Below, piece by piece: positions 13,809 to 16,589 of a stretch of 64,000 nt of DNA; positions within the stretch are counted from its first letter, which is position 1, and each line of letters opens with the position of its first letter. The translations under genes were made by a program, and so were the position numbers. This DNA is from Agrococcus sp. Marseille-P2731 (GTDB taxonomy: Bacteria; Actinomycetota; Actinomycetes; Actinomycetales; Microbacteriaceae), in the NCBI RefSeq assembly GCF_900117395.1, contig NZ_FPEG01000002.1:434001-498000 (forward strand), given 5' to 3'. The notes beneath the pieces were generated by a model, which did no database searches, had not been told where the DNA came from, and was given only the letters and a program-made list of their open reading frames with translations.

Positions 13809-14240
13809 ATGACCCTGCCCACCGACATCGACGACGCGACGAGAGCGCTGCTCGAGCGCCGCGACGGCAAGCCGGGCGGCCAGCTGGCCGAGGCGATGGG
13901 CATCGAGTTCGTGCAGCTCTCGGCCGAGCACTCGATCGCGCGGATGCCCGCTGAGGGCAACAAGCAGCCGGTCGGATACGTGCACGGCGGCGCCTACTGC
14001 GTCATCGCCGAGACGCTCGGCTCCGTGAGCGCGAACATCCACGCTGGCGAGGGCCGCTATGCCGTCGGCACCGACCTCAACGCCACCCACACGCGATCGA
14101 TCCAGAGCGGATGGGTGACGGCTGAGTGCACGGCCCTCCACCTCGGGCGCTCGATGACGGTGCACGAGGTCGTCTGCAGGGATGACGAGGGCCGCCGCGC
14201 CTCGACCATCCGCATCACGAACTTCATCAAGACGCGCTGA
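13809..14240 (+). CDS. PaaI-type hotdog-fold thioesterase
   Basis: This 143-residue single-domain hotdog protein probably hydrolyses acyl-CoA thioesters. The family core is visible: GIEFVQLSAEHSIARMPAEGNKQPVGYVHGG split over residues 31-60, with the conserved HGG at 58-60 and an acidic residue in the following helix (VIAETLGS) as candidate catalytic base. The middle carries GTDLNATHTRSIQSGWVTAE, usual for the PaaI/YbgC-like group. The ATG at 13809 has CGGAG upstream. It is divergent from polA. The 20-bp repeat array begins 16 nt past its stop codon. The natural substrate is unknown; some homologues act on 1,4-dihydroxy-2-naphthoyl-CoA in menaquinone synthesis, but that is not shown here. Confidence 0.85.
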   Translation: MTLPTDIDDATRALLERRDGKPGGQLAEAMGIEFVQLSAEHSIARMPAEGNKQPVGYVHGGAYCVIAETLGSVSANIHAGEGRYAVGTDLNATHTRSIQSGWVTAECTALHLGRSMTVHEVVCRDDEGRRASTIRITNFIKTR

Positions 14241-14256
14241 CCGCGTCCAGCGCCGA

Positions 14257-14482
14257 CTGGCGCCTCCCGCGCCTGAGTGGCGCCTCCCGCACCTGGATGG
14301 CGCCTCCCGCACCTGGATGGCGCCTCCCGCACCTGAGTGGCGCCTCCCGCACCTGAGCGGCGCCTCCCGCACCTGAGTGGCGCCTCCCGCACCACGAGTG
14401 GCGCCTCCCGCACCACGAGTGGCGGCCCCCGCGCCTGAGTGGCGGGTTCCGCGCCCGAGTGGCACCTTTCGCGCCCGCATGG
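14257..14482 (+). repeat. 20-bp tandem repeat array 1 (about 11 units)
   Basis: Contiguous units with consensus GCCTCCCGCACCTGAGTGGC on the plus strand. The CGCCTCCCGC core recurs exactly every 20 nt at 14261, 14281, 14301, 14321, 14341, 14361 and 14381. It then shifts by 21 nt twice (14402, 14423) and decays through 14443, 14463 and 14483. Neighbouring units share variants (ACCTGGATGG twice in a row, ACCACGAGTGG twice in a row), a sign of growth by local duplication. There are no unique spacers. It fills the gap between the thioesterase stop and the 3' end of the DUF559 gene. Function unknown. Confidence 0.9.
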
Positions 14483-14518
14483 CAGTGCACGCCGAAGGAG
14501 AGAGGTCGCGGGCCGGGT

Positions 14519-15409
14519 TCACGCGGCAGTCCATGCCGCGGAACGTCGGTGCGCGGCGACGATCTCGGCTAGGAGGCGCGCGCCGCCGTCGACCAGGTGC
14601 TCCTTCGTGACGGTGATGACGTGCCATCCGGCCGCGCGCAGCTTCTCGAGTCTGGCTTCGTCCCGAGCTCGTTGCAGGGGCTCGGTGTGGTGCTCGCCGT
14701 CGTACTCGATGCCGAGCTTCAGGCTCGGCCAAGACAGGTCGAGGCGCGCGATGAAGGCGCCGGACGCGTCGAAGACTCGATGTTGGAGCGTCGGCTCGGG
14801 CAGGGATCGGATGACGAGGAGACGCACGAGAGTCTCGCGCGGCGACTCTGACCCGACCCGAACGAGCGAGAGAGCATGCCGCGCGCGGTGGAGCCCGCGT
14901 GCCCCCTCGTAGCGACGCAGCGCATCCGCCAGCTCATCGATCGTCAGCGGCGCCCGTCGCTTGGGTGAGACCAGCCAGTCACCGACGACGACCAGCTCCT
15001 CGAGCGTCAGCATGGTTGCGAGATGCACGAACGTGTCGGGACGCGACTCGACCCTCAGCCCGTCGATCTCGAGGGTCTCGGACTTGAGCCGATGACCGAC
15101 CACGCCGGGCCGCTGCATGCGAGCGCGCCCGGTCGGTGAGGCCAGGTGAATGGTGCCCTCGGTCTCGAAGCGGGCGGGCAGCGGCATGCCATGGATGCGA
15201 GCCGCCGTGGTGTGCGAGAAGAACTGGTCGTCGATGGCGAGCACGCGAACCGCCTCGAAGAGCGCCCGTGCTGCGTCGCCGATCGCAGCGGTGATGCGCA
15301 CGCCTCGGGCGGGCGAGGTGAATGCCATCGAACGGAGCTCCGCGGCACTGTAGCCGCGGTCGAGGCCTGCGCTGACGGTGAACCCGTGGGGAGATTCCAT
15401 GCGTGGCAT
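14519..15409 (-). CDS. AbiEi-like / DUF559 (Vsr-fold) nuclease-like protein
   Basis: The protein has 296 residues. The N-terminal half resembles the AbiEi-type region of type IV toxin-antitoxin-like proteins: a basic helical start, AFTSPARGVRI, then FFSHTTAARIHGMPLP (63-78). The C-terminal region (about 205-285) matches DUF559, a Vsr-like PD-(D/E)XK nuclease fold: D224 in ARLDLSWP, E235-Y-D237-G with H240 and H241 in GIEYDGEHH, then a helix and AAGWHVITVTKEHL. Such genes are usually multi-copy and accessory in Microbacteriaceae (from memory). No partner toxin gene is adjacent. The gene is enclosed by two arrays of the same 20-bp repeat in opposite orientation. ATGs at 15409 and 15400 are both possible. 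Function unproven. Confidence 0.7.
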   Translation of the reverse strand: MPRMESPHGFTVSAGLDRGYSAAELRSMAFTSPARGVRITAAIGDAARALFEAVRVLAIDDQFFSHTTAARIHGMPLPARFETEGTIHLASPTGRARMQRPGVVGHRLKSETLEIDGLRVESRPDTFVHLATMLTLEELVVVGDWLVSPKRRAPLTIDELADALRRYEGARGLHRARHALSLVRVGSESPRETLVRLLVIRSLPEPTLQHRVFDASGAFIARLDLSWPSLKLGIEYDGEHHTEPLQRARDEARLEKLRAAGWHVITVTKEHLVDGGARLLAEIVAAHRRSAAWTAA

Positions 15410-15480
15410 GGTGCGGGATGCGAACTGTCACCGACTGTCGCGCATCGCCTGGCTGTGGAGGACCCGCGCCGGGATCGAGG
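15410..15480. other. non-repeat upstream region of the DUF559 gene
   Basis: These 71 nt between array 2 and the DUF559 start must hold any promoter for that gene. I see no clear -10/-35 pair. No ORF of its own. Confidence 0.4.
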
Positions 15481-15770
15481 CGCCACTCGGGGCGCGGGGG
15501 CGTCACTCACACGCGGGGGCGTCACTCACACGCGGGAGGCGCCACTCACACGCGGGAGGCGCCACTCACACGCGGACGCCGCCACTCACGCCCTGGACGC
15601 GCCACTCAGACGCGGAAGGCGCCACTCAGACGCGGGAGGCGCCACTCACACGCGGGAGGCGCCACTCACACGCGGGCGGCGCCACTCACACGCGGGAGGC
15701 GCCACTCACACGCGGGAGGCGCCACTCACACGCGGGGGGGGGCGCCACTCTGGCGCGGGAGGAGGCGGGC
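15481..15770 (-). repeat. 20-bp tandem repeat array 2 (about 14 units), inverted relative to array 1
   Basis: On the minus strand the consensus is GCCTCCCGCGTGTGAGTGGC, matching array 1 except for three adjacent bases (GTG for ACC). GCCACTC (plus strand) recurs every 20 nt from 15541 to 15721, with further units at 15482, 15502, 15521 and 15744. The units at 15502 and 15521 share GTCACTC, and those at 15601 and 15621 share CAGACGCGG, again suggesting local duplication. Together with the short G-rich stretch to 15817 it makes up the 408-nt gene-free gap between the DUF559 gene and the ANTAR regulator. It is not a CRISPR because there are no spacers. Confidence 0.9.
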
Positions 15771-15817: not shown

Positions 15818-16459
15818 CTACTTCTTCTTCGGGTCGAGCTGCTCGATGACGGCCTGCGCGACCTCTGCCATCGTGAGGCGGCGATCCATCGACGCCTTCT
15901 GGATCCAGCGGAAGGCCTCGGGCTCAGCCAGCCCCATGCGCTGGTTGAGCAGGCCCTTCGCCCGGTCGACGAGCTTGCGGGTCTCGAAGCGGTCGGCGAG
16001 GTCGGCGACCTCCGACTCGAGCGTGCGGATCTGCTCCCAGCGCGCCAGCGCGATCTCGATCGCGGGCAGCAGGTCGTTCTGCGTGAAGGGCTTGACGACG
16101 TACGCGAGCGCGCCGGCCTCGCCCGCACGCTCGACGAGCTCCTTCTGGCTGAAGGCGGTGAGCAGCACGACGGGGGCGATCTTCGCGGCGCCGATCTTCT
16201 CTGCCGCCGTGATGCCGTCCATCTTCGGCATCTTCACGTCCATGACGATCAGGTCGGGCTTCAGCGCGGTGGCGAGCTCGACGGCCCGCTCGCCGTCGCC
16301 GGCCTCGCCGATCACGTCGTAGCCCGCGGCCTGCAGGGTCTCGACGATGTCGAGGCGGATGAGCGACTCGTCCTCGACGACCAGCACCGTGCGAGCGGTG
16401 GTGGCGATGGGCGCGTCAGCAGCGTCGAGCTCGGGCTCGGCGAAGAGGTCGTCGTTCAT
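15818..16459 (-). CDS. pdtaR: ANTAR-domain response regulator (PdtaR-like)
   Basis: The protein has 213 residues. A receiver domain (about 22-140) has acidic residues E29/D30, phospho-acceptor D74 (LIVMDVKMPKMDG) and K in YVVKPF (about 124). A C-terminal ANTAR domain (about 150-207) has the pattern KLVDRAKGLLNQRMGLAEPEAFRWIQKASMD (in parts), which binds paired hexanucleotide RNA hairpins and controls transcription termination. Gene content nearby (polA, rpsA, pyk) matches Mycobacterium tuberculosis Rv1626 (PdtaR), the partner of kinase PdtaS; no PdtaS gene lies here. The ATG at 16459 follows a TAGGCT box by 7 nt, suggesting a leaderless mRNA. Array 2 begins about 48 nt past its stop. Confidence 0.92.
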   Translation of the reverse strand: MNDDLFAEPELDAADAPIATTARTVLVVEDESLIRLDIVETLQAAGYDVIGEAGDGERAVELATALKPDLIVMDVKMPKMDGITAAEKIGAAKIAPVVLLTAFSQKELVERAGEAGALAYVVKPFTQNDLLPAIEIALARWEQIRTLESEVADLADRFETRKLVDRAKGLLNQRMGLAEPEAFRWIQKASMDRRLTMAEVAQAVIEQLDPKKK

Positions 16460-16466
16460 GAGCACT

Positions 16467-16472
16467 AGCCTA
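16467..16472 (-). promoter_or_regulatory. candidate -10 box (TAGGCT), leaderless ANTAR regulator
   Basis: On the minus strand TAGGCT, seven bases, then ATG at 16459. The overlapping plus-strand sequence (TAGTCT at 16471-16476) could serve as -10 for the divergent tRNA gene. Motif and spacing only. Confidence 0.4.
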
Positions 16473-16507: not shown

Positions 16508-16589
16508 GCCGGTGTGGCGGAACTGGCAGACGCGGCGCACTCAAACTGCGCTTCCGCAAGGATTGTGGGTTCGAGTCCCACCACCGGTA
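16508..16589 (+). tRNA. tRNA-Leu, anticodon CAA
   Basis: This 82-nt tRNA reads leucine UUG codons. The acceptor stem GCCGGTG (16508-16514) pairs with CACCGGT at the 3' end, with a terminal G-U pair, and the discriminator is A at 16589, as expected for Leu. The anticodon loop CTCAAAC carries CAA. A variable arm typical of class II tRNAs is present, and the T arm GTGGG-TTCGAGT-CCCAC is perfect. CCA is not encoded. It lies between the divergent ANTAR regulator and a strong hairpin terminator. Confidence 0.97.

Follow-up and report, generated by a model that had tools for sequence, protein, structure and literature searches.

RAYTs are REP-associated tyrosine transposases. Passages of two reports on REPIN/RAYT systems (PMC3116915, PMC8049555) describe a RAYT gene that occupies one place in related genomes and is adjoined by cognate palindromes, extra copies that take the form of inverted doublets in extragenic space, and repeat families that differ between genomes. 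Another point of comparison is the EDxHD enzyme I-Bth0305I, which according to part of a review forms a dimer on a target nearly 60 bp long (PMC3943268). VsrA of Caulobacter has the DUF559 domain in common with the protein studied here and is discussed, in the passages available, in connection with cytosine methylation and TG mismatches (PMC12907096); MTES_1575, a Vsr-REase, is described in an excerpt of its report as much larger and composed of several domains (PMC3710099). Those passages mention no flanking repeat family for VsrA and no repeat arrays for MTES_1575. Among the papers listed for the open-licence PMC literature, we recognised none joining DUF559/Vsr-like proteins with flanking repeats, and a description may exist elsewhere.

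The locus described here lies in Agrococcus and consists of a single nuclease-like gene between two facing arrays of a short repeat (Table 1; the window is the whole 64-kb stretch of DNA that was analysed). Our best reading is a partnership of the REPIN/RAYT kind built on an unrelated, homing-endonuclease-like protein that would bind, cut and thereby copy its repeats. As in the excerpts on REPIN/RAYT, an enzyme gene is flanked by cognate repeats (13 of 13 intact Agrococcus orthologues and 48 of 64 loci elsewhere in the Microbacteriaceae), and dispersed inverted doublets occupy extragenic space, with single arrays at three of the ten gene-less sites of the genome itself. Unlike REPIN/RAYT, the enzyme has a Vsr/DUF559 fold and not that of a Y1/HUH transposase, the arms in Agrococcus are 20-bp tandem arrays, and about ten copies per genome were found where counted, against the many hundreds given in those excerpts. 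At E<=0.01, not one of the 24 Agrococcus genomes matched the RAYT domain Y1_Tnp (PF01797), for which a control search gave matches in 6 of 14 known genomes, and RAYT-driven spread of the repeats in Agrococcus was therefore rejected. Since the enzyme is unrelated to RAYT, the system is not a member of the REPIN/RAYT family; it seems to work like one.

Table 1. Features at and around the locus, in window coordinates
Feature	Position	Strand	Remarks
Open frame of 1406 aa	10020-14240	+	mostly antisense to called genes; probably an effect of high G+C content
Left neighbour, small protein	13809..14240	+	ends 14 bp before the left array
Left array	14255..14476	+	11 units of 20-21 bp, consensus GAGTGGCGCCTCCCGCACCT; directed at the gene
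Gene, 296-aa protein with C-terminal Vsr/PD-(D/E)XK-type domain	14519..15409	-	ORF, Pfam, distant structure-sequence match, orthologues
Candidate active site, residues 189-262	14624..14845	-	conservation in 91 homologues
Right array	15469..15754	-	about 14 units of 20 bp, minus-strand consensus GAGTGGCGCCTCCCGCGTGT; directed at the gene
Right neighbour	15818..16468	-	stop about 64 bp from the right array; matched in 24/24 Agrococcus genomes
tRNA gene	16508-16589		just past the right neighbour

Over the 64-kb window, TRF reported 20-bp arrays in two places, 14258-14467 with a score of 283 and 15477-15767 with scores reaching 385; each remaining tandem array of the window scored at most 84. The 16-bp core GAGTGGCGCCTCCCGC had 26 matches in the window at up to three mismatches, 23 of these inside the two arrays, compared with 7.3 on average and at most 14 in shuffled sequence. 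The unit consensus sequences of the left and right arrays differ only at three adjacent bases. Together with the ORF list, these results bear out the sequence-only reading, which had described facing inverted 20-bp arrays of about 11 and about 14 units around one gene, with three adjacent differing bases, and which had placed the arrays correctly to within a few bases. Its statement that each unit contains GGCGCC is true of most units (eight copies in the left array, ten in the right) and not of all. Its suggestion that the arrays pair and so loop out the gene found little support, because 61 of 200 shuffles fold as well as an idealised three-unit array; as the arms of related palindromes (see below) also lack excess covariation, we rejected it. 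The real stretch 14255-14330 was equalled by 5 of 200 shuffles and thus folds somewhat better than most, so that weak local structure may exist there. Near the locus, Rfam matched only a tRNA.

The C-terminal part of the encoded protein, the only ORF product between the arrays, matched Pfam DUF559 (PF04480) with 21.8 bits at a cut-off of 20.6, and its match to MTES_1575 stayed below the cut-off of that model. Both models were matched by all 22 aligned homologues (E<=0.1), in agreement with the DUF559/Vsr-fold label proposed earlier; the accompanying label "AbiEi-like" has to be dropped, since no AbiEi model occurs among the eight Pfam families listed for these homologues at the same threshold. 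An AbiEi protein (type IV antitoxin) would be expected to adjoin an AbiEii toxin gene; between the arrays there is a single gene. The nearest solved sequences, both distant matches, are 3hrl and 3r3p, the latter titled "Mobile intron protein" (E 0.0015), which we take to be the Vsr-like homing endonuclease I-Bth0305I. On that identification the nuclease domain is related by sequence to I-Bth0305I, and the palindromes described below are about the size of the target stated in the review excerpt. As with EDxHD homing endonucleases, the gene lies inside its presumed target, and repair could copy it. Unlike them, it is associated with no intron or intein that we could see, its presumed targets are flanking repeats, many of them gene-less, and its N-terminal part is of unassigned fold. 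Residues S189, E192, R196, D224, E235, G238, H241 and D250 are each 97-100% conserved in 91 homologues, so that catalytic activity has probably been retained.

A nuclease fold would also suit an addiction or defence role, in which a harmful or invader-cutting nuclease is kept harmless by arrays acting as decoys or self-marks. Gene-adjacent repeats could titrate the protein, and PADLOC returned weak matches to ZorE2 (E 0.003) and mREase_II (E 0.006). These matches, however, span only part of the domain, no partner gene lies between the arrays, and several differing paralogues per genome as well as dispersed repeat copies would be unexpected of a decoy. We regard such a role as improbable.

The left neighbour, presumably a hotdog thioesterase, adjoins the site in relatives wherever the fetched stretch extends that far, and the right neighbour is taken to be an ANTAR-type response regulator. 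Among the 24 Agrococcus genomes, 13 have an intact orthologue (identity of 70% or more) and a fourteenth, G004, has a broken one. Inverted 20-bp arrays are present at all 13 intact orthologues, including one locus (L095) that ends at a contig end and shows an array on one side only, and at the broken one. At the syntenic site, 18 genomes carry the orthologue or a homologue of 47-60% identity, one site is split by contig ends (G010), and five are empty (G005, G006, G012, G020 and G022), with neither gene nor array and just 13-216 bp in their place. For a homing endonuclease, such empty alleles would be the candidates for cleavage and for copying of the gene. The best homologues in G005, G006, G012 and G022 are 33-37% identical; G020 has homologues of 46-53%, but at other sites. 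None of the three repeat types defined below has a match anywhere in these five genomes, the zero counts of G012, G020 and G022 being weaker because their assemblies are 78, 65 and 86% complete, respectively.

Syntenic strains that lack the gene thus also lack the arrays (five of five empty sites), as the sequence-only reading had proposed to check. Retention of arrays where the gene is lacking, which it had named as a refutation, was seen at none of these sites; G004 keeps its arrays with a broken gene. In that genome (L110, C1:215483-219001) the orthologue is in two pieces with a stop, the arrays persist beside it and elsewhere, and 48 array hits are retained. Two of the three ideas put forward at that stage, a selfish unit and a target recognised by the protein, would fit these findings; at this site, gene and arrays are jointly present or jointly absent in the Agrococcus genomes that could be read. 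A second conserved site, presumably at the end of a typA-like gene, was observed in four Agrococcus genomes (L107, L115, L117 and L119), where homologues of 49-53% identity are flanked by hairpins or short arrays.

In the genome from which the window was taken, the same arrays occur at ten further places, all gene-less, of which seven are facing array pairs with a short gap. No DUF559 remnant was found in any of the ten (E<=0.01), and we therefore rejected the idea that they are decayed gene copies. At the L016 site, a homologue is present in G008 and G014. The exact three-unit pattern was found in 63 stretches among 84,980 species, 41 of them in named Agrococcus records (lahaulensis, pavilionensis, sediminis, baldri, HG114 and a MAG); the other 22 contain no array by the criterion applied. 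A separate observation concerns the window's genome (G000), in which C3:89000-96000 (L021) and C3:298000-305000 (L022), each with another DUF559 match, share 6992 bp at 100% identity and are inverted relative to each other, either an inverted duplication or an assembly artefact.

Two-unit patterns of three repeat types, GGCGCCT, GGTCA and GGCCA, were counted in the 24 Agrococcus genomes (Table 2). In 12 of the 14 genomes with an intact or broken orthologue, the gene's own repeat type outnumbers each of the other two; the exceptions are G016 (gene type 26 vs. 57) and G018 (47 vs. 67), and in G010 two types are almost equally frequent (44 and 43). Direct inspection showed gene-less sites of this type in ten of the 14 (G000, G001, G002, G003, G004 and G009, and, in named records, G010, G011, G013 and G021); for G015, G016, G017 and G018 the evidence consists of pattern counts. 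The repeat sequence varies between species and is largely coherent inside one genome. It had been anticipated that a repeat spread over the genome with no link to DUF559 genes would speak against a connection; gene-less sites do exist, but at the level of whole genomes the repeat follows the gene.

Table 2. Two-unit pattern counts of three repeat types in Agrococcus genomes, gene-adjacent arrays included (GGTCA and GGCCA patterns cross-match at two mismatches; reversed-pattern controls: 0 for GGCGCCT, at most 5 per genome for GGTCA and GGCCA)
Genome	GGCGCCT	GGTCA	GGCCA
G000	114	0	1
G001	8	24	77
G002	86	1	4
G003	129	2	4
G004	0	48	4
G007	0	20	27
G008	0	5	19
G009	0	95	36
G010	44	43	9
G011	71	9	10
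G013	71	0	0
G014	0	1	9
G015	2	7	28
G016	26	57	0
G017	69	4	1
G018	67	47	11
G019	13	0	11
G021	114	0	0
G023	1	27	12

Comparison of flanking DNA showed many gene-less sites to be shared in location between species that nevertheless have different repeat types there. One such place has the GGCG type in the window's genome (L014), in A. sediminis (L047) and in A. baldri (L065) and GGTCA in G004 (L171); a further one has GGCGCC in the window's genome (L013) and in G003 (L183) and GGTCAC, of the GGTCA type, in G009 (L168). All three types meet at a third place, with GGCGCC in A. baldri (L085/L191), GGTCAC in G004 (L172) and GGCCA in G001 (L175). Two sites combine types, as in a change under way: at L066 of A. 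pavilionensis and L068 of A. lahaulensis, GGCGCC makes up the left array and GGTCA the right one. Against the rule, L186 of G003 consists of three GGTCA units within a GGCGCC genome. On a flanking-DNA tree of 22 genomes (G012 and G022 left out; 8 of 19 inner branches well supported, the long branches of G005 and G010 unreliable), GGTCA requires at least three changes on well-supported branches and GGCCA is clustered, with the type labels of G007, G008, G014, G019 and G023 assigned by eye; the gene-free G006 and G020 nest inside the gene-bearing group.

Of the 34 gene-less Agrococcus sites scored, 21 lie between convergent genes, 12 between tandem genes and one between divergent genes (two more are at contig edges), compared with 3 convergent among the 56 adjacent gene pairs of the window. 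This bias is as expected for tolerated extragenic elements. It would also agree with a host-serving role, in which the repeats are fixed binding sites of the protein, for instance for transcription ends, chromosome organisation or fork barriers, are homogenised by ordinary recombination and persist through their usefulness. Many sites are indeed common to several species, and the palindromes of related genera conserve their arms rather than pairing (see below). However, gaps between convergent genes also let neutral insertions survive, and the repeat differs both between species at one site and between paralogues of one genome (none of 25 pairs reaches a flank score of 17), neither of which a fixed useful site needs. 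The five Agrococcus genomes without any of the three types searched and the conserved nuclease residues likewise argue against host service, which we consider unlikely, if the least unlikely of the alternatives.

The pattern reaches beyond Agrococcus. Profile matches to the gene family were obtained in 204 of 299 genomes sampled from the Microbacteriaceae and in 209 of 396 sampled from the order. At 48 of 64 Microbacteriaceae loci outside Agrococcus, the left flank has an inverted match in the right flank (score >=16), compared with 4 of 320 cross-locus pairs; the other 16 loci have no such match at this score. These loci, like those from other families, are high-scoring hits and no random sample, with several per genome, and one of the 40 fetched regions was dropped (L251 is the same place as L213). 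In other families, 13 of 17 usable loci score at least 16, the 17 being what remains of 25 after removal of L279 and L296 (contig ends) and six own-family loci (repeat loci L281 and L282 omitted); the corresponding control is contaminated at its top by homologous loci (median 10.5, 95% 15.5, 99% 271). Around other genes, flank matches occurred at 3 of 51 genes in the window and at 4 of 36 neighbouring genes, whose flanks can contain the palindrome.

These figures bear on the possibility that the repeats are passive hairpins such as terminators, or were spread by another enzyme, and that the gene came to lie among them by chance or hitch-hiking. The intergenic position of the sites, often near gene ends, would suit such an origin, and so would the short, terminator-like hairpins, unrelated to the arrays, seen by eye at the empty sites of G006, G020 and G012. 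Matching repeats on both sides of this gene in several families, which are rarer around other genes, speak against it, as do the lack of all three array types where the gene is absent and, for spread by another enzyme, the lack of the RAYT domain in the 24 Agrococcus genomes. This explanation is already disfavoured, and we rate it very low.

In most cases the matching flank element is a palindrome whose arms measure about 20 bp. On a plasmid of Arthrobacter sp. ERGS1:01, the gene for WP_054009319.1 has three direct copies plus a hairpin on one side and a hairpin on the other, and this palindrome occurs at four places of the plasmid. Dispersal outside Agrococcus was counted for two palindromes in nine genomes. 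A 56-bp palindrome has 11 copies each in G150 and G249, two of which flank the gene in each genome, and 0 and 1 arm matches in two other genomes of the genus. For the second palindrome, G161, G296 and G212 gave 22, 18 and 23 arm matches, respectively, and in each of these three the gene is flanked on either side by palindromes or arms; G257 and G099 gave 4 and 6 arm matches. When eight gene-less regions of G150 were compared with eight of G249, seven corresponded (one of them on a single side) and one in each genome was unmatched; at one unshared place, the other genome has a different palindrome. Since most of the compared sites are common to both genomes, movement appears to be slow, as judged from a comparison that included two unshared sites. 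In G249 (L322, C82:1-4500, about 1550-1770), a second palindrome family, CTGGTCGAGTAG ... TATCGAGACC, occupies the place at which the sister genome has the 56-bp palindrome, and in G004 (L110, 3238-3431) a tandem sequence related to the same family was observed. In 22 aligned copies of the 56-bp palindrome the arms are conserved and 94.5% of cells pair, and covariation did not exceed that of shuffles (99 of 500 as high); pairing without such an excess suggests that the arm, and not pairing itself, is conserved.

Gene copies within one genome mostly have a repeat of their own. Flank scores stayed below 17 in all 25 same-genome paralogue pairs and lay at 16.0-16.5 in four of them, and the paralogous loci of Agrococcus G007 and G008 have a common repeat core. 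In a comparison of 69 loci (those with a flank match of at least 16.5, together with 17 of the 25 order-level loci), all 11 pairs with at least 80% protein identity reached a score of 17, as did 8 of 10 at 70-80%, 9 of 26 at 60-70% and 11 of the 2299 with less than 60%. Because close protein pairs are often syntenic, this matching shows fast repeat change more than it proves recognition.

On the basis of layout, co-occurrence, same-site type differences, locus-specific palindromes, conserved residues and the lack of a RAYT domain match in Agrococcus, we give a probability of roughly 0.6 to the reading that a sequence-specific endonuclease of the Vsr/DUF559 fold is partnered with cognate short repeats in a RAYT/REPIN-like layout and acts through cutting and repair copying. 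Recognition would be of the arm of about 20 bp. Many relatives have a palindrome of two such arms, inverted, on each side of the gene (56 bp where measured), further palindromes occupying other intergenic spaces, and in Agrococcus each arm would have been multiplied into a 20-bp tandem array. The protein would bind pairs of arms and nick or cut there; repair from another copy may then overwrite or lengthen arrays, spread one type across the dispersed sites and at times seed or erase a site. A gene between its own targets would be kept or lost along with them. Cutting at the arms followed by repair would account for changes of type where the site stays the same, for arms growing into tandem arrays and for the loss of gene and arrays together, and the gene may coevolve with its repeats in the manner of a small DNA family that copies itself.

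Against the partnership stand the genomes in which the gene's type is outnumbered or nearly tied (G016, G018 and G010), the foreign-type units at L186 of G003, the arrays of G004 beside a broken gene, the common core of the G007 and G008 paralogues, the four paralogue pairs at 16.0-16.5, the apparently slow movement between G150 and G249, the 16 Microbacteriaceae loci lacking an inverted match and the frequent synteny of close protein pairs; moreover, ordinary recombination could homogenise arrays without an enzyme. A host function of the repeats, their passive homogenisation and an addiction role are retained as less probable alternatives. We see even odds for the wider proposal that across the order this family of Vsr-fold nucleases keeps private palindrome populations, one type per gene lineage, and that in Agrococcus types are replaced genome-wide at fixed sites, so that changes in enzyme specificity are written into dispersed arrays.

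If the partnership is real, REP-like repeats would not be bound to RAYT transposases, and an association of this kind would have evolved at least twice in bacteria with unrelated enzymes. Dozens of natural enzyme-target pairs, several per genome, would become available for studying how a nuclease and its site change specificity together, and the concerted evolution of dispersed repeats in bacteria would become testable by deleting one gene. Moreover, a common group of proteins of the Actinobacteria, so far designated "DUF559", would be given a function.
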